Shown here in pieces: positions 34,182 to 47,383 of a DNA stretch of 64,000 nucleotides. A model generated the notes under the pieces. It was not told where the DNA came from. It worked only from the letters and a program-made list of their open reading frames with translations, and ran no database searches. A program made the position numbers and the translations under genes. Numbering within the stretch: position 1 is the first letter of the stretch; each line of letters opens with the position of its first letter. Source of the stretch: Sporosarcina sp. (GTDB lineage Bacteria > Bacillota > Bacilli > Bacillales_A > Planococcaceae); the NCBI RefSeq assembly GCF_029257255.1, contig NZ_JARICI010000009.1:62001-126000 (forward strand), in the 5' to 3' direction.

Positions 34182-34865
34182 TTGATTAAGAATAGCTTAA
34201 GATCAGACTCATTAGTAGATATTGCCTATCATCAAATTAAACAAGACTTTTCTGTTAGGGTTGTCAATCCTGGAGAGAAGATTATTATTAAAGATATGGT
34301 TGATCGGTACGGCATCAGTGAAACACCTATAAAACAAGCTTTAAATCGATTAATTGCGGAGGGGCTAGTTGAATATATCCCTAGACGTGGTATGCGCTTC
34401 AAGGATGCAAATTGGGAAGATATTGAAGAAATGCTTGATGTACGACTAATGTTGGAAACCTTCTTTGCGGCCAGAGTAATTGATGCGGTAAGCATTGACA
34501 ATAAAATTATTGAAGATATGAGAGAAAACATTAAACAACAATACGAAGCAATTGAAAAGATTGAAACCCTTGACGATTTTTTCGAAGTATATAAAATTGA
34601 TCATGATTTTCACTTAACGTATATGAAGGGTATGGGAAATAAAAAAATTCTACAGATTTACGAAAGTATTGGGAGCCATTCATTTTCATCTTTTTTGTAT
34701 GGTAAAAAGCCTAAAGAAAAGTTAATTAGTGGTGTAAAAGAACATGAAGACATTTGTAATGCTTTGGAGAAAAGGGATTACGCAGATTTAGCCACAGCCA
34801 TTAAGGTGCATATTGATAATGCAAAAGAATATATTAGTTTTATGATAAAAATAAAGAGTATATAA
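34182..34865 (+). CDS. GntR-family regulator, FCD subgroup
   Basis: A 227-residue regulator. The N-terminal winged helix includes VDRYGISETPIKQALNRLIAEGLVEYIPRRG. The all-helical FCD effector domain (about residues 85-220) has the Asp/His metal-site pattern DVRLMLETF, DHDFHLTYM and, later, KEHEDICNALE. FCD regulators usually bind carboxylic acids. The start is TTG, with AGGAGAGG upstream. It converges on the catabolic cluster and carries the same operator motif as the cluster promoter, so it is the likely local repressor. Confidence 0.88.
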   Translation: MIKNSLRSDSLVDIAYHQIKQDFSVRVVNPGEKIIIKDMVDRYGISETPIKQALNRLIAEGLVEYIPRRGMRFKDANWEDIEEMLDVRLMLETFFAARVIDAVSIDNKIIEDMRENIKQQYEAIEKIETLDDFFEVYKIDHDFHLTYMKGMGNKKILQIYESIGSHSFSSFLYGKKPKEKLISGVKEHEDICNALEKRDYADLATAIKVHIDNAKEYISFMIKIKSI

Positions 34866-35564: not shown

Positions 35565-36515
35565 TTAATTAATTTTATAAGGGCAATTTTGGTCATCTAA
35601 AATACTAATGACATTTTGAGCTGCCAACATACCCATATTTAAAACTGCGTCCATTGTGTAACCACCTATATGAGGAGTAATCAAACAATTTTGAAGTGTT
35701 AATAATGGACTGTCGAAAGATGGTTCTTGCAACGTTGCATCAAGAGCGGCAGAAGCGACTTTACCTTCCTTGAGCGCATGATATAGAGCATCTTCATCAA
35801 TTATTCCACCACGTGCAGTATTTACTATAACAGCAGAACATTTCATCATTTTTAATTGCTTTTCACCAATCAGATTGCTTGTTTCTGCTGTAAGCGGACA
35901 ATGAATTGATACAAAATCAGATTCTGTAAGAAGTTCTTCCAATTCACAATATGTAACGCCATATTCAATAATAAGTTCTTCATTTGGATATTTATCATAG
36001 CATAAAATACGCATATTAAATCCGCTAAGTCGCTTAATAACCCCTTTTCCTATTCTTCCTGTACCAATAATGCCACAGGTTTTTCCCCATAATTCAAAAC
36101 CGAGGGTTCTGCCTTCCTGTTGACTTTTAATCCGTTGATCCATCTGGGGTATATAACGAGCACAAGACAACATCGAACCTATCGCCAAGTCGGCAACCGA
36201 GTTTTCATTTGCCCCTGGAGTGACAGTAACTGCTATTCCTTTTTTGGTTGCCACTTCAATGTCTACTTTATCGTAGCCTACTCCATATCTGGAAATCACC
36301 TTTAACTTTTTACCTGCATCTATAACCTCTGCATTAAAATCATCCAAACCCGCTATAACTGCATCGGCATTTTCAATGTACTTAATCAATTCATTCGAAG
36401 TCAAAGGACTATCAGTTGTTATCTTTTTAACATTGCACTTATTATTCTCTAGCAGTTTAATAGGTGCATCATTTCCTTTACCAAAGGATCGAGCTGTAAC
36501 AATTACCTCATACAT
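35565..36515 (-). CDS. D-isomer-specific 2-hydroxyacid dehydrogenase 1
   Basis: A 316-residue NAD-dependent enzyme of the phosphoglycerate-dehydrogenase/hydroxyacid class. The Rossmann motif is GIIGTGRIGKGV (about residues 147-158). Catalytic Arg is in NTARGGIIDEDAL, Glu in the following LQEPSFDSP region, and His in TPHIGGYT. It would interconvert a 2-hydroxyacid and a 2-oxoacid. It is the last gene of the leftward catabolic cluster, 124 bases after the FGGY kinase. The start follows GGAGGGGG. Confidence 0.9.
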   Translation of the reverse strand: MYEVIVTARSFGKGNDAPIKLLENNKCNVKKITTDSPLTSNELIKYIENADAVIAGLDDFNAEVIDAGKKLKVISRYGVGYDKVDIEVATKKGIAVTVTPGANENSVADLAIGSMLSCARYIPQMDQRIKSQQEGRTLGFELWGKTCGIIGTGRIGKGVIKRLSGFNMRILCYDKYPNEELIIEYGVTYCELEELLTESDFVSIHCPLTAETSNLIGEKQLKMMKCSAVIVNTARGGIIDEDALYHALKEGKVASAALDATLQEPSFDSPLLTLQNCLITPHIGGYTMDAVLNMGMLAAQNVISILDDQNCPYKIN

Positions 36516-36639: not shown

Positions 36640-38055
36640 TTAAGATGTCCTGTCATACCAATGGAGATAACGATTATATCTATTACTATAATGATCATAC
36701 ATATTGGGATTTGGATAAATAACTTTCCCAACCTCCGCAGTATATTCATTTGGATTAAAGGTCCTGTCCAAATAGGCCCTAGCTAGTATAGCACCACCTA
36801 ATACAGATGCCTGTTCACTGTCTGAGCAGTACAACCTTTCACCTAAGATGTCACTCATCATTTGCAGCCATTTCGTGGATTTATTTATCCCACCCGATAC
36901 CATAATCTTCTCGGGTATTCCCATTTCACTCGTAATATGATCAAAACATTGTCTAATATTCATAACAATACCCTCTAAAACGCCAAAATACATATCTACT
37001 GCTGTATGGTTTGAACGCAATTCGTGAAAACCGCTCAATCTATCGTCTTTCCATCCAGGACACCTTTCTCCAAACATAAAGGGTAGAAAAACAGGTATCT
37101 CCTTCATATCAACCTTTTGATTTTCAAGTTCCTGGTATGATGTCGATTTCGGAAAAAATGTTTGCTTACCCCAGTCTAAACAGTTGCATGCTCCTGAAGT
37201 AGCAGCTCCCGCGAGCCAAGATGTAGGCGATAGATAGCACCATGTCCCCATCTCTTTAGATACAATGGGTTTTGAAGATGATAATCGCAGTGCCGCGCTT
37301 GTACCAACAGAAAGGCTCATAATGCCTTCCTTTAAAGCACCGGCACCTACTTGATTCAAAGCACCATCTGGATGAGTAGGTATTACTGGTATTCCTGGAC
37401 TTATACCTAGTGAATTTGCTGCCTCAAGAGAAAGAGGACGTGCATCCTGATAGGTGCACAATTCCCCGAGTTGACTTGTCTTGAGATCAACCATCTCTAA
37501 AGCTTTCTCATCATAATCAAGTGTATGAATATTAAACATTCCTGACCCAGAGGCCATACTATTAGTAACCATTCTTTCTCCGGTCATTCTGTAAAATAAA
37601 TAGCTGCCTTCACCTGCGATATATTTATCCTTTAAATCCAATCCTTGATTTCTAAAGTGTAGTAACTTATAAGCCGGGTAGAGAGCATGAACCATACACC
37701 CTGTTCTTTCATACATTTTTTTAACTTGGTAAGGATCCTTTCTTAACTCCGCCACCTCGTTTGAAGCACCAGTATGTCCCCACAAGTACGTTCGGGTAAG
37801 TGGATTCATATTACTATCACACACCACTACGCTATGCCACGTACTGCAAAGTGCTACAGCGTCTATATCCTTTTGTGCTGCTATTTTCCTTCCAACCTCC
37901 ATAACAGCACTGTATATTCCTTCCGTATCATGTGTAATACCATCGTTAATACTTTTTGGAAAAGGTTTACTTATAATATCTACAATTCCTTTACTATCAT
38001 CATAGAGTAGAGCTTTTGCTGACGTAGTACTAGCTTCAAGAACGAGGATCAACAA
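36640..38055 (-). CDS. FGGY-family carbohydrate kinase (gluconokinase-like)
   Basis: A 471-residue sugar/sugar-acid kinase. It opens with the phosphate-binding strand ILVLEASTTSAKALLYD. The second FGGY segment includes IMSLSVGTSAALRLSS, and the end motif is KIMVSGGINKSTKWLQMMSDILG. Closest in style to gluconokinase or xylulokinase. In this locus it could phosphorylate a C6 acid so that the downstream aldolase can cleave it. There is no PfkB-type KdgK here, so this kinase may fill that place. The start follows GGGGTGAGG. Confidence 0.88.
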   Translation of the reverse strand: MLILVLEASTTSAKALLYDDSKGIVDIISKPFPKSINDGITHDTEGIYSAVMEVGRKIAAQKDIDAVALCSTWHSVVVCDSNMNPLTRTYLWGHTGASNEVAELRKDPYQVKKMYERTGCMVHALYPAYKLLHFRNQGLDLKDKYIAGEGSYLFYRMTGERMVTNSMASGSGMFNIHTLDYDEKALEMVDLKTSQLGELCTYQDARPLSLEAANSLGISPGIPVIPTHPDGALNQVGAGALKEGIMSLSVGTSAALRLSSSKPIVSKEMGTWCYLSPTSWLAGAATSGACNCLDWGKQTFFPKSTSYQELENQKVDMKEIPVFLPFMFGERCPGWKDDRLSGFHELRSNHTAVDMYFGVLEGIVMNIRQCFDHITSEMGIPEKIMVSGGINKSTKWLQMMSDILGERLYCSDSEQASVLGGAILARAYLDRTFNPNEYTAEVGKVIYPNPNMYDHYSNRYNRYLHWYDRTS

Positions 38056-38103: not shown

Positions 38104-38862
38104 TCACATTGCCAGATAACCACCATCAACAGGAATAATGGCACCATTTAAGTAATTTGAAGCATCAGATGAAAGGAAAATTGTTACTCCTTTCATATCA
38201 TCAGAAGTACCCCATCTACCGGCCGGTATTCTTTTTGTAATACCCTCATTTCTTTCACTATCATTAATAATATTCACGTTCATTACTGTATCCATATATC
38301 CCGGGGCCACGGCATTGACATTTACACCCCGCCCTGCCCATTCATTTGATAACGCTTTTGTCATTTGCATAACTGCACCTTTACTTGCTGCATATGCAGG
38401 AACTGTATATCCGCCAAAGTAACTTAACATCGAGGCAATATTAATAATTTTCCCTTTACCTTGTTTTAACATAAGTTTTCCCGCAAGTTGGTTAATTTCA
38501 AAGACAATGTTAAGGTTTACATGCATTACGGCATTCCAATCCTCTATTGGAAATTCCTCACTTTTATGTCTTCGTTGAATACCAGCTGCGGGAATTAGAA
38601 TATCTAAAGTTCCGTCTAAAATTTCAATTGCATTGTCAAAAGCAGACTGCAATTCCTTCCTGTCACCTAAATTAGCTACTATTCCATGTACTTTAAATCC
38701 TTTTTCTCGTAATTCTTCTACTACCTTGGGAGTATTTGGTGAAAGATCTAAAATAACAACCTCAGCACCTGCTTCCATTAACCCCTCCGCCATACCCAAA
38801 CCAAGCCCAGAGGCCGCACCCGTTACAATAGCTTTCTTGTCAGTAAGATCGAATAATTTCAT
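38104..38862 (-). CDS. kduD: Short-chain dehydrogenase, KduD-like
   Basis: A 252-residue classical SDR. It has the NAD-binding TGAASGLGLGM, NIASMLSYFGGYTVPAYAASKGA (catalytic Ser, Tyr, Lys), and KduD-like signatures AAGIQRRHKSEEFP, NVNAVAPGYMDT and RIPAGRWG. KduD reduces 5-keto-4-deoxyuronate-derived 2,5-diketo-3-deoxygluconate to KDG. The neighbouring KduI/IolB-like isomerase makes that role plausible. AAAGAGGTG precedes the ATG. The symbol is by similarity; the real substrate may differ. Confidence 0.82.
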   Translation of the reverse strand: MKLFDLTDKKAIVTGAASGLGLGMAEGLMEAGAEVVILDLSPNTPKVVEELREKGFKVHGIVANLGDRKELQSAFDNAIEILDGTLDILIPAAGIQRRHKSEEFPIEDWNAVMHVNLNIVFEINQLAGKLMLKQGKGKIINIASMLSYFGGYTVPAYAASKGAVMQMTKALSNEWAGRGVNVNAVAPGYMDTVMNVNIINDSERNEGITKRIPAGRWGTSDDMKGVTIFLSSDASNYLNGAIIPVDGGYLAM

Positions 38863-38891: not shown

Positions 38892-39689
38892 TTACATGTC
38901 TTCAAATGTAGGATCGAAAACAGCCAGATCATACCTTCTGCTTGAATGCGAGAATGCTGCCAATACCCAAAAGTAAGTATTTCTAGTTCCTGGACTCGCT
39001 ACAGTAGGGTGGTATCCTCGTGGTACTAGCACCATGTCACCACTAGTAACATGATGTGCAACCAAATTATCAGTTTCTTGAGTTTTCAAGTAACTAATAT
39101 GCAATCCAAACTTTGGTTCATCCATATCAAAATAGCAATAAACCTCTTCTAAATCATTTTCATGCTGGTGGGGTGGCCAACTGGTCCATGTTCCATCGCC
39201 TCCCCAAGTTAATCCACATATTAATTTAGAGGCAGGGACCTCAGGATTTAGAGTAAAATGAACTTCTCGTTGCCCTGATCCGGCCCCGTGTATTTGGTGA
39301 ATTTCACCTAAAGGTAAATCTTTATTGTATGCACGGTAGAACTCTTTTCCATGCCCCTCACATAATGCTCCACCTATATAAAAGATTGTGTCTTCAATTG
39401 CGGTAACATTAACAGAACTATTACCCGGTATATAAAAGCTATCGTAAACTGACATTTTTTGATCTATACATTCGGATTTTATATTCGCTGTACCTTTCAA
39501 GAGAACACCATTCATTTCCAAATCTAAAGAGTTTATCATATAGCTGTTTCCAGCTGATAGATTTAATCGGAATATGTGCACAGCGGAACAATCTTCTCTA
39601 CCTGGATCAACAACTTTATGAAACCCTTCTTCCTCGGTAGATTTAAGATGCCAATTTTTCATTGTTTGCTGTGTGGATGTACTAGTCAT
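38892..39689 (-). CDS. KduI/IolB-family cupin isomerase
   Basis: A 265-residue bicupin. The metal site WPPHQHENDLEEVYCYF (His, His, Glu) and the later VPRGYHPTVASPG (His) match the 5-deoxyglucuronate isomerase IolB and its relative KduI. These isomerases open or rearrange a deoxyuronate ring. I chose the ATG at 39689 with GGAGG upstream; the longer frame would run over the palindromic operator at 39713. IolB suggests an inositol-like substrate and KduI an uronate; sequence alone leaves this open. Confidence 0.82.
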   Translation of the reverse strand: MTSTSTQQTMKNWHLKSTEEEGFHKVVDPGREDCSAVHIFRLNLSAGNSYMINSLDLEMNGVLLKGTANIKSECIDQKMSVYDSFYIPGNSSVNVTAIEDTIFYIGGALCEGHGKEFYRAYNKDLPLGEIHQIHGAGSGQREVHFTLNPEVPASKLICGLTWGGDGTWTSWPPHQHENDLEEVYCYFDMDEPKFGLHISYLKTQETDNLVAHHVTSGDMVLVPRGYHPTVASPGTRNTYFWVLAAFSHSSRRYDLAVFDPTFEDM

Positions 39690-39712
39690 TATTGAAACCT
39701 CCAATATATTGA

Positions 39713-39733
39713 ATTTAAAATCTGATTTTAAAT
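39713..39733. promoter_or_regulatory. Candidate GntR operator 2 (inside the cluster)
   Basis: Arms ATTTAAAATC (39713-39722) and GATTTTAAAT (39724-39733) are perfectly complementary around a central T. This is the most symmetric of three related sites. It sits between the HIT gene and the IolB-like gene and may mark an internal promoter. Confidence 0.6.
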
Positions 39734-40180
39734 TTCTTGCTTTACGCATTTTCTTATATGATGATTTAATGTAGCAATCCATTGAGTCTTATCTTCATCA
39801 GTTAAATATACTTTTTCAAGTGCGTCACTAAACGGATTTCCCCATGAGACACCATCCACTTTTTTAGGTACCAAGTGTACGTGGAAATGCGGAGCCAGAT
39901 CGCCATAGGTGGCATAATTGATTTTATCCGCACCATAAAGTTCGTGTATTGCTTTTGCTACATTAGATACGTCTTCGAAAAAGTTATTTCTTTCTTGAGC
40001 ACTAAACTCAAATAGTTCTGTTTTATGTCCATTAGAAGCGACTATACATCTACCAGGATTTTTTTGATCATGAAATAGGTAAACCGTAGATGAATCCAAG
40101 ACGCATATCTCAGTCATAAGTGTTGATAAAGGCTCACTTTTTGTACAGTAAAAACACTGCGAATCATAATCTTTACCCAT
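39728..40180 (-). CDS. HIT-family hydrolase
   Basis: A 150-residue histidine-triad protein with the active site HFHVHLVPK (about residues 105-113) and an N-terminal zinc-type pair, CFYC. HIT proteins hydrolyse or transfer nucleotides from nucleoside phosphates. Its presence in a sugar-acid cluster is unusual and suggests a nucleotidylated intermediate or a repair role; this is a guess. The start ATG at 40180 follows AGGAGGAG. Confidence 0.85.
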   Translation of the reverse strand: MGKDYDSQCFYCTKSEPLSTLMTEICVLDSSTVYLFHDQKNPGRCIVASNGHKTELFEFSAQERNNFFEDVSNVAKAIHELYGADKINYATYGDLAPHFHVHLVPKKVDGVSWGNPFSDALEKVYLTDEDKTQWIATLNHHIRKCVKQEI

Positions 40181-40251: not shown

Positions 40252-41259
40252 TTATTTAACAGAGACATTTGAATGTAATGGTCGGACATTTTGAAGGGCT
40301 CCCTGATTAACAAGGTTGGGATGTTTACCATATTCCAAGTAATCAATAATGTTTTTAGCCGCCAAACGAACCATTTCTGTTCTTGTTTCAATTGTTGCAG
40401 TTGCCATGTGTGCGCCAAGTACTACATTATCCATTGCCTTAAATGCATCAGGAATATTTGGCTCATTTTCAAATACATCAAGGCCCGCTCCAGCAATCAC
40501 ACCATTTTGCAATGCCTTAATTAAAGCTTGTTCATTCACCACAGGACCCCTGCCAATATTTATTAAGAAGGCAGATTGTTTCATCATTTCAAATTGCGGC
40601 GTATCGAACATATGATATGTCGATGATGTAAGTGGTGTATTAATCATTACAATGTCCGATTCTTTTAAGAGCTGCTCAAGCGTTGGTACATAAGTAGCGT
40701 TATATTCTTTCTCAACCTTTTCTGACAGTCGATTTCTATTATGATATGTTACATCCATCATAAAGCCACTTGTTCTTCTAGCCAGTGCTTTACCGATATT
40801 ACCCATTCCTACAATCCCTAATCTTTTCCCATTTAGCCCCCTGCCAACATTTGCAATTGGTCCCCATGGAAGATTTGGATCCAGGCGCAACTTTCTATCA
40901 GTTTCAGCTACTCTTCTCATTACGGAAAGCATGAGTGCCATCCCAAATTCAGCGGTAGATTCGGTAACAATATCCGGTAGATTACAAACAAGAATTCCTT
41001 TTTCATTCATAGTTTCTATATCTACATTATCGTACCCTACGCCATACGTACTCATGATCTTAATATTATCCATACGTTCGATTGCTTCCTTGTCTGGTTT
41101 AAAACCACAAGAAATTAATGCATCATATTCAGGAAGTATTTTCAGTATTTCTTCTCTAGGAACTTTCTCAGATGGATAATATACATCATACCTCTCAAAT
41201 AACTCTGTTAACCCCTCCTTAAAAACAGGAAACGGTACCATAATCTTTTTTTTCGCCAT
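40252..41259 (-). CDS. D-isomer-specific 2-hydroxyacid dehydrogenase 2
   Basis: A 335-residue NAD(P)-dependent enzyme near glyoxylate/hydroxypyruvate reductases. The Rossmann motif is GIVGMGNIGKAL (about 150-161). Catalytic residues are in NIGRGPVVNEQAL (Arg), LDVFENEP (Glu) and LGAHMATAT (His). I chose the ATG at 41259, with AAGGAGG upstream. It is a distinct paralogue of the enzyme at 35565, so the pathway may need two different redox steps on 2-oxo or 2-hydroxy acids. Confidence 0.9.
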   Translation of the reverse strand: MAKKKIMVPFPVFKEGLTELFERYDVYYPSEKVPREEILKILPEYDALISCGFKPDKEAIERMDNIKIMSTYGVGYDNVDIETMNEKGILVCNLPDIVTESTAEFGMALMLSVMRRVAETDRKLRLDPNLPWGPIANVGRGLNGKRLGIVGMGNIGKALARRTSGFMMDVTYHNRNRLSEKVEKEYNATYVPTLEQLLKESDIVMINTPLTSSTYHMFDTPQFEMMKQSAFLINIGRGPVVNEQALIKALQNGVIAGAGLDVFENEPNIPDAFKAMDNVVLGAHMATATIETRTEMVRLAAKNIIDYLEYGKHPNLVNQGALQNVRPLHSNVSVK

Positions 41260-41293
41260 AAAGTTTTTCCTCCTTGATGTGACTAGTTTTCTA

Positions 41294-42352
41294 TTATTTG
41301 TTCCAACCAATTAATGATTTAATATCATCGCGATGATCCCACGAAGACGGATTATGATCATTTCTTTCTTCAATATGAATAGCAAAGCCAGCTAGATAAT
41401 CCTTTAAATAAATCACGAACATTTTATCGCCATGATATTTAATGTGTTCCGTATTAAACTCAACACCAGCGTTACCTAAATAGAAAATACTTCTCTTTAA
41501 ATTATCCGTATGATAACCAATATGACCATGCGGTCCCCTAACCTTAAAAGGTTGCTTTGTAATTTCAACATCTTTTCCTACATATGTTGAGCTCTCGGTA
41601 TCCCCTAGTGTTAAATCAAACATATCCGCTAATTTAAAGATGTTTTTGTATCCTTCTTCTTCTGTATCACAGTTGATGCCAAAATGTGCAAAATCAAAAT
41701 TCAGCATCTTGAAAATGGAATCGCGTGTGAGCTTTCTAATCTCATCAAATTTCCCGGAACTAATTAATTCAGTATTTACCATCCAACTACCGCCACAAGC
41801 AATTACATTGGGATCATTGACATACTCACTAATATTGTCCAGACCTATGCCACCTGTCGGCATGAAACGTACATCTTTATAAACGGAACATAAAGCCTTT
41901 ATTGTCTGAATTCCTCCAGACGATTTCGCTGGAAAGAACTTCAAATTTGTAAGCCCGTATGAAACTGCCTTTTGAACATCTGATGCTGTTGCACAACCAG
42001 GTATCACAAGGATGTTATGTTGTATGCAGTAATCTACAACTTCATCAATCAACGCGGGACAAACAATAAACTTTGCACCTGCACTCATTGCTTGCTTAAC
42101 CTGTTCAACTGAGTTTATTGTACCTGCACCTATGAGCATATCCGGATATTTCTTTGTAATTTCTTTAATTACGTCAGCTGCACAATTAGTTCTAAATGTG
42201 ATTTCAGCTAGATTTAATCCTCCATCTATAAGTGCCTTTGCAAGTGGAAGAGCATCCTTAACATCTTCAATTTTCACTACTGGTACAATACCATAATCCT
42301 CAATTTGTTTTAATACTTTTTGATTATCAATCTCTACTAATATTTTTTCCAT
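41294..42352 (-). CDS. KDPG/KHG aldolase fused to a VOC-fold domain
   Basis: A 352-residue fusion. Residues 1-210 are an Eda-type aldolase: GGLNLAEITFRT (catalytic Glu50), GAGTINS, and NLKFFPAKSSGG (Schiff-base Lys138). Residues from about 215 form a VOC domain (DFAHFGINCDTEEEGYKN, HIGYHTDNLKRSIFYL, LKDYLAGFAIHIEER). Eda cleaves 2-keto-3-deoxy-6-phosphogluconate to pyruvate and glyceraldehyde phosphate. The extra domain is not part of classical Eda (about 210 residues) and may shape substrate choice. The frame is continuous, with no sign of two genes. Confidence 0.88.
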   Translation of the reverse strand: MEKILVEIDNQKVLKQIEDYGIVPVVKIEDVKDALPLAKALIDGGLNLAEITFRTNCAADVIKEITKKYPDMLIGAGTINSVEQVKQAMSAGAKFIVCPALIDEVVDYCIQHNILVIPGCATASDVQKAVSYGLTNLKFFPAKSSGGIQTIKALCSVYKDVRFMPTGGIGLDNISEYVNDPNVIACGGSWMVNTELISSGKFDEIRKLTRDSIFKMLNFDFAHFGINCDTEEEGYKNIFKLADMFDLTLGDTESSTYVGKDVEITKQPFKVRGPHGHIGYHTDNLKRSIFYLGNAGVEFNTEHIKYHGDKMFVIYLKDYLAGFAIHIEERNDHNPSSWDHRDDIKSLIGWNK

Positions 42353-42389: not shown

Positions 42390-44297
42390 TTAATTTTTGT
42401 CTAATGCCATTTGTGGAAGTTGCCCAATTTTTTTCTTTTGTATATTTCTCACTACCAAAATTCCGAGTAAGATAAAGCCAACTAAGGAAGTTGCTAACTC
42501 AGGAACTATTAAAAGCATTGCAACCGTAAGCATTAATATCCGTTCAAACTTATGAATTGGCGCAAACATATAACCCGCAATAGCCGCGGCTAATGCAGAA
42601 ACACCTGCATAAAGGAATAAGGTAGCTACGAATATTTCTAATGGCGATCCTATAAGAAGGATTGCAGGCTGATAAATAAAAACAAACGGGATTAAGAATG
42701 ACACTGATGCATAAACAAATCCCGTCCAACCTGTCTTCCAGGGGTTTGCCCCTGCAATACCAGCCGCTGTAAAGGATGCCAGGCAAACGGGTGGAGTAAT
42801 TTGAGCAATAACCCCAAAGTAAAAACAAAACATATGTGCAACCAAAATTGGAATACCAAGTTTTATTAAGATTGGTACAAACAATACAACTCCGATCAGA
42901 TATGCAGCTACTGTAGGTAAAGCCATTCCAAGTAACATACAACCTAAGGTAGTAATTAAAAGGGCTGCCAATAGGCTTGTTCCACCAACGTCTGCTACAA
43001 CTGCGGAAAATTTATTTGCCAGACCGGATTGAATAACGACACCTATTATAATTCCACATGCTGCGATTGGAAGAGTAATATTCGCCGCCTGCTTTATCCC
43101 TTCAATAAATGCTACATAGATTTCCTTGATACCTTTACGGTTAGCAGGCACCAAAACGTTAAGTACCAGTATTGCCAAAATGCTGTAAAGTGCAGCACTT
43201 CTTAAAGATTGACCGGAAAGGACCATACCAAGTAATACGAACGCCGGGAAAAGCAAGTACAATCTTGGTAAGATTGGCTGAGTTTTAAATTTAATATTCT
43301 CATTATCAATCATTCTTGAACTTTCATACTTATTCCTTTTTGCAATAAACCCTACCAGAAGGAGGATAGACAGAAAGTATGCAAGAGCAGGAATTGTAGC
43401 CGCCAGTGCAATAGAGGCATATTTAACACCTAGCAACTCCGCCATTATAAATGCTCCTACTCCCATAATAGGTGGCATTATTTGTCCGCCTGTAGAAGCA
43501 ACAGCCTCTATCGCACCTGCTTGTTCAGGTTTATAACCAACCTTCTTCATCATGGGAATAGTCAAAACACCTGTAGTAGTTACATTTGCAACGGAGCTTC
43601 CACTGATCATTCCCATAAGTGCACTACTTATCACAGCTGCTTTGGCAGGACCTCCAGTTTCAGGATTACCTAACTTTAAACCTATATCGATCAATACTTG
43701 CCCGCCTCCGCAAGCGGAGAAGATAACACCGAATAGTATAAAGTAGAAGATGAAACTTGCTGTTGCCGATAAGGGTGTTCCGTATATCCCCTCCGTCGTC
43801 AACGTCATGATCTCAGTAAATTGAAGCAGTGAGAATCCCGCGAACTTTGTAAATCCGAAACTATACGGTCCTAGAAATGCGTAAGCAATAAATATTGAAA
43901 CAAAAACCAATAAGTTAAACCCTAATACTCTTCTAACCGCTTCCAGCAAAAGCACAAGTAAAATTAACGTAACAGCAACATCGCCAGGTAAAATGGGATC
44001 AATGTTTGGAATTCTATTAACGATACGCTGTTCATGACCAATATAAAAAATTACGACTCCAACCAAAATACCTACAAAAATGAAATCAATCACCCGTAGC
44101 CAGATAATCTTTTTACTTATTGGTTTGCTAATAAAAACTAAGGACAGGGCAAAAGAAAGGAAAATCGGACTAAGTATCATAGGGTGTATTGGTTTAAATA
44201 GTGTGAAATATAGTTGTGTAAGCAACCAGCCTAGCGCAATTATTCCTAGTAGTATGTTAATATAATGAGATTTTTTATTTAGTTGTAACTCCATCAA
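42390..44297 (-). CDS. TRAP transporter fused permease (DctQ-DctM, TAXI type)
   Basis: A 635-residue membrane protein. The first third has the DctQ-like helices, and the rest is DctM-like, with signatures GSSVANVTTTGVLTIPMMKKVGY and ASTGGQIMPPIMGVGAFIMAE (about 240-285) and, later, GCMLLGMALPTVAAYLIGVVL. The protein imports a carboxylate using a sodium or proton gradient, with the binding protein encoded upstream. Fused permeases of this kind go with TAXI binding proteins, as here. It is followed by the aldolase. Confidence 0.93.
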   Translation of the reverse strand: MMELQLNKKSHYINILLGIIALGWLLTQLYFTLFKPIHPMILSPIFLSFALSLVFISKPISKKIIWLRVIDFIFVGILVGVVIFYIGHEQRIVNRIPNIDPILPGDVAVTLILLVLLLEAVRRVLGFNLLVFVSIFIAYAFLGPYSFGFTKFAGFSLLQFTEIMTLTTEGIYGTPLSATASFIFYFILFGVIFSACGGGQVLIDIGLKLGNPETGGPAKAAVISSALMGMISGSSVANVTTTGVLTIPMMKKVGYKPEQAGAIEAVASTGGQIMPPIMGVGAFIMAELLGVKYASIALAATIPALAYFLSILLLVGFIAKRNKYESSRMIDNENIKFKTQPILPRLYLLFPAFVLLGMVLSGQSLRSAALYSILAILVLNVLVPANRKGIKEIYVAFIEGIKQAANITLPIAACGIIIGVVIQSGLANKFSAVVADVGGTSLLAALLITTLGCMLLGMALPTVAAYLIGVVLFVPILIKLGIPILVAHMFCFYFGVIAQITPPVCLASFTAAGIAGANPWKTGWTGFVYASVSFLIPFVFIYQPAILLIGSPLEIFVATLFLYAGVSALAAAIAGYMFAPIHKFERILMLTVAMLLIVPELATSLVGFILLGILVVRNIQKKKIGQLPQMALDKN

Positions 44298-44376: not shown

Positions 44377-45426
44377 CTATTGTAGATATCCAACTTCTTT
44401 AAAATATTTCTCGGCCCCTGGGTGAAGCGGTATTCCAAGGTATTCTAAGTTTCCTGCAGTTTTCGGATCAAAGTCTTCCATTACAGGAACCAGCTCCACC
44501 ATTTTTTCCTTATTTTCAGAAATTGCTTTTGTTATTTCATATACAATCTCTTCAGGAACGTCTTTCCTAACGACCAAGGATTCTGTCCCTACAACAGTTT
44601 GGATGTCATTATCTTGTCCACCCCAACTTTTAGCGGGTATTACTTTATTGGCATAACCATAGTCATTTAGTTTATCTCTAGTTTCTTGCGCTAGTTCAAT
44701 AACGTGCATAGTCGTTGTCATTGTAAGTTCCGAGAATGCAGGCTGCCCCAGACTTACTACGTCTATTGAGATATCCGCCTTTCCTTCTTTCAACATATCT
44801 ACCATTTGGCTAGGATCAATATGGAACACATCACCACCCCAAGATTTAATATCATCAAATTTTACATCCATTGTGTCTAAGAGATCTTCTGCGCCAGTGA
44901 TTCCAAAACTACCTGCCTGCTTAGTTACGACTTTCACAGGATATTTTTGATCAATTATATCTTCAAACGTTTTAATACCAGTTTTTTTCACAAAGGAATC
45001 AGTAAACATGATTGTCATATAAGTAAAGTCTGTACCACCTAAAATAGAAGCTACATTTTCTACAGGTGGACGCTTCTCATCATATGTTCCTTCAAATAAC
45101 TTCTTTGCCGGAACATTGTTTGATGTGCCTATTTGCGCCTTGTTTTCCTCAAGAAGAAGTATAGTCGCCGCTCCTCCAGTAGATGATGGCTGGACTTCCA
45201 TATGATAATCCTCGGGAAGTATAGGATTAATAATTTCGTTAAAAGCCGCGGCTCTAGAATATACTGCTGTCCCTACAGTTTGGGTTGTTAACACCAAGTT
45301 CTTTACCTTATCAGCTTTATCCGAACCTTCAGCACTAGTAGGGTCATCAGAACATGCAGTCATAATTGAAAGCGCTATCATTAAGGTTAAAAATAAAAAA
45401 ATACTTTTTTTCTTTTTACCAATCAT
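44377..45426 (-). CDS. TAXI-family TRAP solute-binding lipoprotein
   Basis: A 349-residue binding protein. The signal peptide ends in IMTAC (lipobox), so it is membrane-tethered. TAXI-style features are QTVGTAVYSRAAAFNEI, NKAQIGTSNN and GADISIDVVSLGQPAFSEL. It should capture the substrate outside the cell for the fused permease. I prefer the ATG at 45426, with GGGGGA six bases upstream; a TTG two codons earlier is inside that site. TAXI ligands are acids such as glutamate or dicarboxylates, and the ligand here is unknown. Confidence 0.9.
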   Translation of the reverse strand: MIGKKKKSIFLFLTLMIALSIMTACSDDPTSAEGSDKADKVKNLVLTTQTVGTAVYSRAAAFNEIINPILPEDYHMEVQPSSTGGAATILLLEENKAQIGTSNNVPAKKLFEGTYDEKRPPVENVASILGGTDFTYMTIMFTDSFVKKTGIKTFEDIIDQKYPVKVVTKQAGSFGITGAEDLLDTMDVKFDDIKSWGGDVFHIDPSQMVDMLKEGKADISIDVVSLGQPAFSELTMTTTMHVIELAQETRDKLNDYGYANKVIPAKSWGGQDNDIQTVVGTESLVVRKDVPEEIVYEITKAISENKEKMVELVPVMEDFDPKTAGNLEYLGIPLHPGAEKYFKEVGYLQ

Positions 45427-45491
45427 ACTCAATCCCCCTTTTAAGTTGTTTAAAATGTATGTTCATATTTAAAACCCTTGAATTATTTAAC

Positions 45492-45917
45492 TTATACAAT
45501 ATTCTTTATTGCATCTATCGCAACCAAATAACTATTTTTTCCGAAACCTGTGATCATTCCAGTACATACGGGAGCAATTGCAGATTGATTCTTTGGATTT
45601 CTAAAAAAGTTGGACAGATGAACCTCTATGCAAGGAATTGATAATGTACTGATTGCTTCTTTTATACCAACACTATAGTGACCAAATGAACCCGGGTTAA
45701 TAATCACACCTGCATACTCAAAGTTAGCCTGCTGAATTCTATCGATTATGTCTCCTTCATGGTTGCTTTGAAACGTATTAACTTCAATACTAAACTTTTC
45801 CGAGTAACCTATCACTTCTTCGTTGATCTCTTCTAACGTAGCCGTTCCAAGTGTATTAGTTTCCCTCAAACCAAGAAGATTCATGTTTGCTCCATTTATA
45901 AGTAATATTTTTTTCAC
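45492..45917 (-). CDS. AroQ-like (type II 3-dehydroquinate dehydratase fold) protein lacking the catalytic Tyr
   Basis: A 141-residue flavodoxin-fold protein, first gene of the leftward cluster. Kept family elements: LLINGANMNLLGLRE (Asn and Arg), TFQSNHEGDIIDRI, IINPGSFGHYSVGIKEA (His) and CIEVHLSN. Lost: the catalytic Tyr in the family motif REPxxYG, since the sequence reads RETNTLG. The lid after EVHLSN is also changed (FFRNPKNQSAIAPV rather than an FRHHS-type stretch). Ordinary dehydroquinase activity is therefore doubtful. The start is GTG 45917, with GGGGGGAAG upstream. Its place at the head of the operon suggests a new substrate. Confidence 0.82.
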   Translation of the reverse strand: MKKILLINGANMNLLGLRETNTLGTATLEEINEEVIGYSEKFSIEVNTFQSNHEGDIIDRIQQANFEYAGVIINPGSFGHYSVGIKEAISTLSIPCIEVHLSNFFRNPKNQSAIAPVCTGMITGFGKNSYLVAIDAIKNIV

Positions 45918-45962
45918 ATCTTCCCCCCTCTCATACAAGATTTTAATATCGGCTTATAAAAC

Positions 45963-46033
45963 ATAAAATCTATTTAATCGGATTTTAGATTTTATTTGAT
46001 TCTTATACTATATTAATTAACAATGCGTGTCAA
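45963..46033 (-). promoter_or_regulatory. Cluster promoter with candidate GntR operator 3
   Basis: Read leftward: -35 TTGACA (46033-46028), a 17-base spacer, -10 TAGTAT (46010-46005). Just downstream, arms ATAAAATCTA and TAGATTTTAT (45995-45986 and 45972-45963) flank a centre with AAATC-C-GATT. The start of transcription would be near 45998, so bound repressor would block elongation or open complex. Confidence 0.65.
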
Positions 46034-46256: not shown

Positions 46257-47156
46257 TCACTCCAATAAAACGTCGAAATCTTTCACAAACACAGCATTTC
46301 CTGTTATTTCAACATCATAAGAATCATCACTTTTTGAAACACGGACCATTACTCTACCGTCTTTATCTATTTCTAAGCCTTGCTCCACAACAAGATCCAG
46401 AGTTCCGTCAAACTTATCATGCTTTATATACTCGATAAAATAAACACCTATCACTCCCGATGCCGTTCCCGTAACTGCGTCTTCAACAGTCCCTGAATAT
46501 GGCGAAGAAAAATGTCTGGCGTGCATATCAGCTTGTTTATCATAGGTTTGCAGACAAAACGGGTGTAGGGAGGCCTTTGGCATTTCTTTTAATATCGAAG
46601 GAAACTGCTGATTATCAGGCCGCATTCTTTTAAAAGCTTCCAATTCTTTGATCGGAATCAAAAGTGTCCATGCACCTGTGCTCCCATATAAAATAGGAAG
46701 ACTGTCATTAATATCTGATCCTGCCAACCCGATTGAATTGGCTAGAGCTTCTTTACAACCTTTGAATTCTCTGAATTGGGGAGATGCCTGTTTCATTGTA
46801 ATCAGGATTTCATTCTTGGGCGATGTGTTGATTTTAATTGGCAAGATCCCTGCTTTTGTTTCTAGTGTAAATTCTTTTTTATTACCTAAAAGCCCTTTAG
46901 TTTTTAATGCATATATTGTCGCCATCGTTGCATGACCGCATAAATTCATTTCTTGTCCAGGCGTAAAAAAGCGGATTTTTAGATCAGCCGCCTCAGATTT
47001 AAGTAGAAAAGCTGTTTCATTGAAACCCGCTTTATAAGCAATTTCTTGCATCTCCTCATCTGATAATTCTCCACCATTTAAAACAACACCTGCGGGATTC
47101 CCTTTATTCGGCAATTTACTGAACGCATCATAATGATGAACTTTTATCCATTTCAT
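46257..47156 (-). CDS. PhzF-family isomerase-fold protein
   Basis: A 299-residue protein with the two diaminopimelate-epimerase-like halves of PhzF. Signatures are [32 protein letters not shown] (with the catalytic Glu45-type NET motif), [14 protein letters not shown] and [19 protein letters not shown]. In the cell such proteins act in small-molecule or thiol/metabolite repair, and phenazine genes are absent here. I chose the ATG at 47156, seven bases after GGAGGT. It is monocistronic, just outside the island. Confidence 0.9.
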
Positions 47157-47383
47157 TTCATTGACCTCCAAATATTTTCTCCCGTCAATCCATACCGCTG
47201 ATCTTATCTACAACTTCGTCGTTAGAAATACCAATAGAATACACCACGGATTAACTCCCAATTGATTTCATTATAATTTTCTATGTATAAAGCCACTTCT
47301 ATGTAAAGGGTATGAATGCATTATGTTATATATTGGGAATAGTGTGTATGATACTCATAAATGGAATGAAGGAGTGATTTATT

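Follow-up and report, generated by a model that had tools for sequence, protein, structure and literature searches.

Type II dehydroquinases are dodecamers with a flavodoxin-like fold. In these enzymes, Tyr24 is described as the base that takes the C2 proton and is deprotonated by Asp88 of the next subunit, and Arg108 and Arg112 are proposed to lower the pKa of this tyrosine (PMC6011038). The same source has Arg112 and His81 contacting the hydroxyl at C5; the C1 hydroxyl and the carboxylate are where Asn75 and His101 act (PMC6011038). Mutagenesis reported for the C. glutamicum enzyme showed almost complete loss of activity when alanine was introduced at N12, R19, Y24, N75, E99, H101 or R108, activity below detection for H81A and R112A, and 19% activity for S103A (PMC10772564).

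The dehydroquinase of B. subtilis, for which the solved structure 1gqo is available (PMC4411048), naturally carries Phe24, a feature shared by several other bacilli, and is a functional enzyme whose mechanism is unexplored (PMC4314829). Its Km of 107 uM and kcat of 10.46 per second correspond to a kcat/Km of 0.10 L/umol/s, which stands beside 0.04 L/umol/s for the M. tuberculosis enzyme in the same table and falls within the span of values for the 34 enzymes that the table lists as active, the authors nevertheless calling the efficiency low (PMC4314829). A first-pass annotation of the locus described below had held the tyrosine to be essential in the studied type II enzymes, which the kcat of the Phe24 enzyme contradicts; since this enzyme is active, loss of the tyrosine is neither unique nor proof of lost activity. 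The literature matches listed included neither a member of the type II dehydroquinase family credited with anything but the dehydration of dehydroquinate nor a Leu-form or repurposed type II dehydroquinase. A Leu form is encoded in the window, by which is meant the whole stretch of 64,000 nucleotides of Sporosarcina sp. DNA that was analysed, and an orthologue of it was found in a second species (G005).

Active site of the AroQ-like protein

The AroQ-like gene occupies positions 45492-45917 and encodes 141 residues from a GTG start. The first-pass coordinates of this open reading frame were retained, and it is to be read on the minus strand, since the plus-strand frame there has stops. A longer option from TTG (45492-45938, minus strand) is available, and a G-rich, ribosome-binding-like run, which is also present in G005, lies upstream of the GTG. 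The membership of the type II dehydroquinase family that had been proposed from the letters was confirmed by the match to PF01220 (DHquinase_II), which reaches 154.5 bits against a gathering cut-off of 23.3 (1.8e-45) and spans residues 10-144, equal to positions 1-137 of 138 in the profile. The cut-offs of NF003805 and NF003807, two NCBIfam subfamilies of type II dehydroquinases, were passed as well, and 39 distinct sequences of solved structures match the protein at E 0.001 or better, the top one by E-value being 1gqo (2.9e-36). The aroQ equivalog TIGR01088, with a cut-off of 169.85, was missed by both the window protein (151.2) and its orthologue (149.5), whereas all six ordinary AroQ controls passed it with scores of 193.2-209.7. 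Among the relatives read, the best ordinary ones are 50-51% identical to the window protein, and the gene is best read as a diverged AroQ paralogue.

The active site was compared in an alignment of 149 distinct rows, which comprised the window protein, the orthologue and 147 others after identical sequences had been collapsed (L002, L083 and L114, which are the window gene itself, and L084, a duplicate of the orthologue, were left out of the count); residues are numbered in the M. tuberculosis scheme, set by motif spacing. The earlier observation that the family motif REPxxYG reads RETNTLG was upheld, in that the Tyr24 position is occupied by Leu in the window protein and in the orthologue, and by Tyr in 145/145 other readable rows, the two further rows without a letter being fragments of one broken gene. 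The Asp88 position holds Glu in both orthologues, a conservative change, and Asp in 145 of 146 other rows. The lid segment after EVHLSN, likewise noticed at first pass, was confirmed to be altered: it reads FFRNP-KNQS in the window protein where the family has xxAREEFRxxS, it is shorter by two residues in both orthologues, and the family arginines are not at their positions. The R108 column holds Asn in both (Arg in 144 of 146 other rows), and the R112 column holds Lys in the window protein and Gly in the orthologue (Arg in 145 of 146). The Arg of FFRNP, kept in both orthologues, sits one column before R108 in a lid whose alignment is uncertain by one residue, and for this reason R108 may have been shifted rather than lost. 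Because the orthologue displays the same Leu, the same deletion and the same Asp88Glu change, chance or sequencing error does not account for these departures.

The Asn, Arg and His positions that had been noted as kept were indeed found in the alignment, since Asn12, Arg19, Asn75, His81, Glu99 and His101 are all retained in the window protein and the orthologue; Ser103 is replaced by Ala in the latter. Viewed against the residue roles and mutants summarized above, what has changed is the base together with the residues that assist it on the ring side, and what is retained belongs mainly to the hydroxy-carboxylate side, with Asn12, Arg19 and His81 in addition. The protein is therefore like AroQ (PF01220, TIGR01088) in family, length and most core residues, and unlike it in Leu24, Glu88, the short lid with altered arginines, the sub-cut-off TIGR01088 score and the catabolic-type operon. 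It shares with the B. subtilis enzyme (1gqo) the natural absence of the catalytic tyrosine; however, the latter has Phe, keeps Asp88 and both lid arginines and is active, whereas the window protein has Leu, and its combination of changes, as judged from the alignment, exceeds the Phe24 case.

The ten-gene operon and related modules

The AroQ-like gene heads a ten-gene minus-strand operon (45917 to 35565), and the same ten genes recur in the same order in G005 with 82-95% protein identity. Profile matches identify a TAXI-family TRAP solute-binding protein (44377-45432), a fused TRAP permease (42390-44297), a D-2-hydroxyacid dehydrogenase (40252-41310), which is one of two in the operon, a HIT-domain protein (39728-40180), a KduD-like short-chain dehydrogenase (38104-38862) and, as the last gene, the second D-2-hydroxyacid dehydrogenase (35565-36515). 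The remaining members encode a KDPG/KHG aldolase domain (41294-42352, residues 18-208) followed at the C-terminus by some 140 additional residues that gave no Pfam match, a KduI/IolB-family isomerase-like protein (38892-39782) and an FGGY carbohydrate kinase (36640-38055), whose best solved match, 3gbt, is named gluconate kinase. The extension of the aldolase is presumably glyoxalase-like, as it appeared by eye; a similar one was seen in relatives from G603 and G634, near KduD-like genes and PfkB-type kinases, the kinases being identified by eye. The placement of the AroQ-like gene in a catabolic-type cluster rather than with aro genes is thus substantiated by the run common to both species, and an ordinary aroQ lies elsewhere in the window genome, on another contig, where it scores 204.6 on TIGR01088 against the cut-off of 169.85 and adjoins an ORF identified by eye as Xaa-Pro-peptidase-like. 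G005 likewise has both an ordinary AroQ and the Leu form.

The aldolase meets the KDPG/KHG subfamily TIGR01182 (251.2 versus 156.05), and together with the KduD-like protein and the FGGY kinase it would fit a 5-keto-4-deoxyuronate or a ketogluconate route. The operon has in common with the described KduI/KduD DHU pathway clusters a KduI/IolB-family protein, a KduD-like reductase, a kinase and a KDPG aldolase (PMC12838403). It differs from them in that the isomerase-like protein reaches neither the IolB equivalog cut-off nor that of KduI (30.4 bits versus 250 for the KduI equivalog NF002091) and that the window genome has no match to GH88. These two points weaken the 5-keto-4-deoxyuronate route, and with the strong KduI-family match found elsewhere in the genome of G005 they led us to reject the canonical pectin/uronate pathway. 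The KduD-like protein also missed the KduD equivalogs TIGR01832 (282.2 versus 338.85) and NF005390 (281.5 versus 369). No quinate dehydrogenase or dehydroshikimate dehydratase was over its cut-off among the family matches listed for the operon's ten proteins, where the lists of two dehydrogenases cover 25 NCBIfam families each; a Shikimate_DH match in one hydroxyacid dehydrogenase fell just under its cut-off (23.6 versus 24.3).

Upstream of the AroQ-like gene, a promoter-like TTGACA-17-TAGTAT (46005-46033, minus strand) lies in a region conserved in G005, where TTGACA is kept and the second element is TAATAT; the promoter scan on its own was not significant (53 sites versus 50.6 expected). Between promoter and gene, the inverted repeat AAATCTA...TAGATTT (45964-45994) is a candidate operator, the half-sites of which are largely kept in G005, with a chance figure of 0.01 that is post hoc, the pattern having been picked after it was sighted. 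The window has a PhzF-family gene on the same strand (46257-47171), at a distance of about 320 bases on the upstream side. PhzF has no match in the G005 stretch, where the corresponding neighbour is a DctM-type ORF identified by eye. The earlier view that the AroQ-like gene is first in its cluster is therefore favoured by the conserved promoter-like region between it and PhzF, and qualified by the same-strand PhzF gene; on balance it is likely the first gene of the transcript. Past the operon end, a GntR-FCD protein (34182-34865, plus strand, opposite to the operon) is a candidate regulator, and G005 has an 89% identical copy past its operon end, on the strand of the operon. The G005 operon is further accompanied (L116:1464-8421) by rpiA, a LacI-type regulator recognized by eye, a PfkB kinase, an OMPdecase/HUMPS-family protein, a SIS-domain protein and a DctP protein with DctQM-type ORFs, also recognized by eye; no such neighbour set, from rpiA to DctP, was observed next to the window's operon.

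Modules of a related kind were met in more distant Bacillota. The KduI-like gene was detected at 1e-40 in two of 261 genomes of the order, the same two that have the Leu form, and in a draw across the phylum three of 377 genomes besides the window's own (G660, G751 and G753) have a relative at 1e-25. In G660 and G751 this gene lies near KduD-like and hydroxyacid-dehydrogenase genes and near DctPQM-type transporter ORFs, the last of these identified by eye, and in G660 the beginning of an FGGY kinase, truncated by the contig end, is close by as well; in the stretch searched around the gene in G753, no KduD-like or dehydrogenase match was found. The AroQ-like gene has no match in the stretches fetched around the G660 and G751 modules; G751 gave no AroQ match at E 0.001, and the AroQ match of G660, on another contig, carries Tyr. 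Since both modules do without such a gene in the stretches read, the AroQ-like step looks like an accessory addition rather than a constant part of the pathway. The window protein at 38892-39782 thus belongs with L192 and L193 to a KduI/IolB-family group under both equivalog cut-offs, which in two distant Bacillota genomes lies near KduD-like, hydroxyacid-dehydrogenase, TRAP-type and, in G660, FGGY genes.

Distribution and origin

At E 1e-42 or better, a threshold at which a more diverged Leu form would be missed, the Leu-form protein occurs in two of 261 genomes of the order, the window genome and G005. Across 84,980 species genomes, a scan that requires a match to a short peptide pattern of the window protein gave 366 relatives, and the best 80 of the 366 all carry Tyr and are at most 51% identical. 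Plasmid records gave 435 matches, all below 60% identity, and a further search for relatives covered 30 loci and 40 additional fetched places among the matches read. A 17-base degenerate DNA pattern for the lid matched 67 of 398 genomes of the class, the window's own included, but its reversed control also matched many, and it was set aside as too short.

In a tree of 147 rows, the window protein and its orthologue form a clade with 100/100 support on a branch of 1.21, outside the aroQ rows of the genus. The expectation that Leu-form homologues would constitute a separate clade is thereby borne out, for two known members, and their co-occurrence with TAXI-TRAP, KduD-like and KduI/IolB-family genes holds in two of the two genomes that have them. 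The placement of the clade is weakly supported (80/28), and an AU test on 112 of the rows did not reject grouping with the genus aroQ (p 0.311); a recent duplication of aroQ within the genus, which was considered and is disfavoured by the topology, thus retains some plausibility, and both duplication and transfer are candidate origins of the pair. Two other sequences may be mentioned here. L160 (G117:C68) is a very divergent PF01220-like relative, 32% identical, which keeps Tyr but has Glu in the place of His81 and whose lid differs; its genome also has an ordinary AroQ. L161 (G016:C64), from a genome of the same genus, is an aroQ in two fragments, with a stop-free second match elsewhere in that genome.

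Candidate functions and selection

The reading that we tentatively prefer, at a little short of an even chance, is that an AroQ paralogue may have been recruited to the head of a catabolic operon for sugar acids of hexonate or uronate type, with loss of efficient dehydroquinase activity. Asn75 and His81, the carboxylate-binding turn and the dyad of Glu99 and His101 would still hold the hydroxy-carboxylate end of the ligand, and His101 would serve as acid or base on a hydroxy- or keto-acid metabolite of the operon without a tyrosinate, in a reaction that might be a hydration, a dehydration or the migration of a double bond adjacent to the carboxylate. A switch to a ligand other than dehydroquinate would explain the altered lid and ring-side contacts. 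In favour of recruitment, the window protein and the orthologue depart at all four of Tyr24, D88, R108 and R112, of which Y24, R108 and R112 proved sensitive to alanine in the C. glutamicum enzyme (PMC10772564), and the protein is probably a poor dehydroquinase at best, as we infer from these positions. The ordinary aroQ elsewhere in the genome, the ten genes shared with G005, the conserved core described below and the TIGR01088 scores also speak for it. Counted against it are the lid Arg of FFRNP, which may stand in for R108, the two NCBIfam type II dehydroquinase subfamily cut-offs that are passed, the restriction to two members and the G660 and G751 modules that do without the gene; moreover, the Phe24 dehydroquinase has ordinary kinetics, so that loss of the tyrosine alone does not abolish activity. 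Of the new dehydratase, isomerase or binding function that had been put forward at first pass, the changed Leu and lid, the separate clade, the linkage to the operon and the TIGR01088 failure are consistent with such a reading, and the function itself stays a candidate.

If recruitment is true, a natural paralogue in which the base, the neighbour-subunit acid and the lid have changed while the rest is frozen would imply that the fold can be repurposed, and it would offer a natural test of which residues bind the acid and which do the chemistry. It would also bear on the question, left open in the report on the B. subtilis enzyme, of how the Tyr-less enzymes of the family work (PMC4314829).

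The alternative that survives best, unlikely in our judgement though of real weight, is that the protein is still a dehydroquinase, slow or conditional and independent of the tyrosine like the Phe24 enzyme, acting perhaps on quinate-derived 3-dehydroquinate that enters through the TAXI-TRAP transporter. The activity of the B. subtilis enzyme (kcat/Km 0.10 L/umol/s; PMC4314829), the retention of Asn12, Arg19, Asn75, His81, Glu99 and His101 and the passing of NF003805 and NF003807 all speak for this possibility. Nevertheless, Asp88 and the two lid arginines, at all of which the window protein departs, are present in the B. subtilis enzyme, and leucine lacks the aromatic ring of phenylalanine; the operon proteins supply no quinate dehydrogenase or dehydroshikimate dehydratase over cut-off among the matches listed, and a normal aroQ is present in the genome.

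A non-catalytic binding protein, in which the carboxylate pocket would bind a pathway acid and the oligomer would sense it, buffer it or regulate a partner enzyme, is slightly less likely again. It would be in keeping with a changed catalytic base and ring-side contacts beside a conserved hydroxy-carboxylate pocket, and acid binding without turnover is possible in the fold, because citrate is reported to occupy the site of the C. glutamicum dehydroquinase (PMC10772564). Still, the Glu99-His101 dyad and Asn12 are kept, which mere binding does not need, and the GntR-FCD regulator near both operons could do the sensing.

A more specific proposal, to which we accord only a small chance, is that the fold, now without a tyrosinate, hydrates or tautomerizes a cyclic sugar acid belonging to the operon; Glu99-His101 would add water at the carboxylate-bearing ring carbon, in the reverse sense of dehydroquinate dehydration, and so open the ring to a keto acid for the KduI-like and KduD-like proteins. 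If so, it would represent a second, unrelated solution to the step performed by KdgF, which we take to belong to a different protein family. The analogy with this uronate ring-opening enzyme is hypothetical; KdgF is described as acting on an unsaturated uronate in which the carboxylate sits on the double bond (PMC9510102).

The AroQ-like gene is under purifying selection, with a pN/pS of 0.20 between the two species (Fisher p 1.5e-13), compared with 0.086 for the dehydrogenase gene at 40252-41310. The orthologue is 82% identical to the window protein, differing at 24 of 141 residues and at none within 66-101. An identical run of this length, 36 residues, was reached by 180 of 20000 random placements, and the 66-101 core holds Asn75, His81, Glu88, Glu99 and His101. 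In dN/dS, the AroQ-like gene (0.160) and the TAXI protein (0.159) lie above seven other operon genes, whose values range over 0.050-0.120. A decaying aroQ duplicate carried at the operon head, for which the fastest or joint-fastest rate in the operon and the occurrence in two of 261 genomes of the order might be invoked, is the least credible explanation of all, given the 36-residue identical core, the constraint just described and a gene intact in both species at a dS of 0.62.
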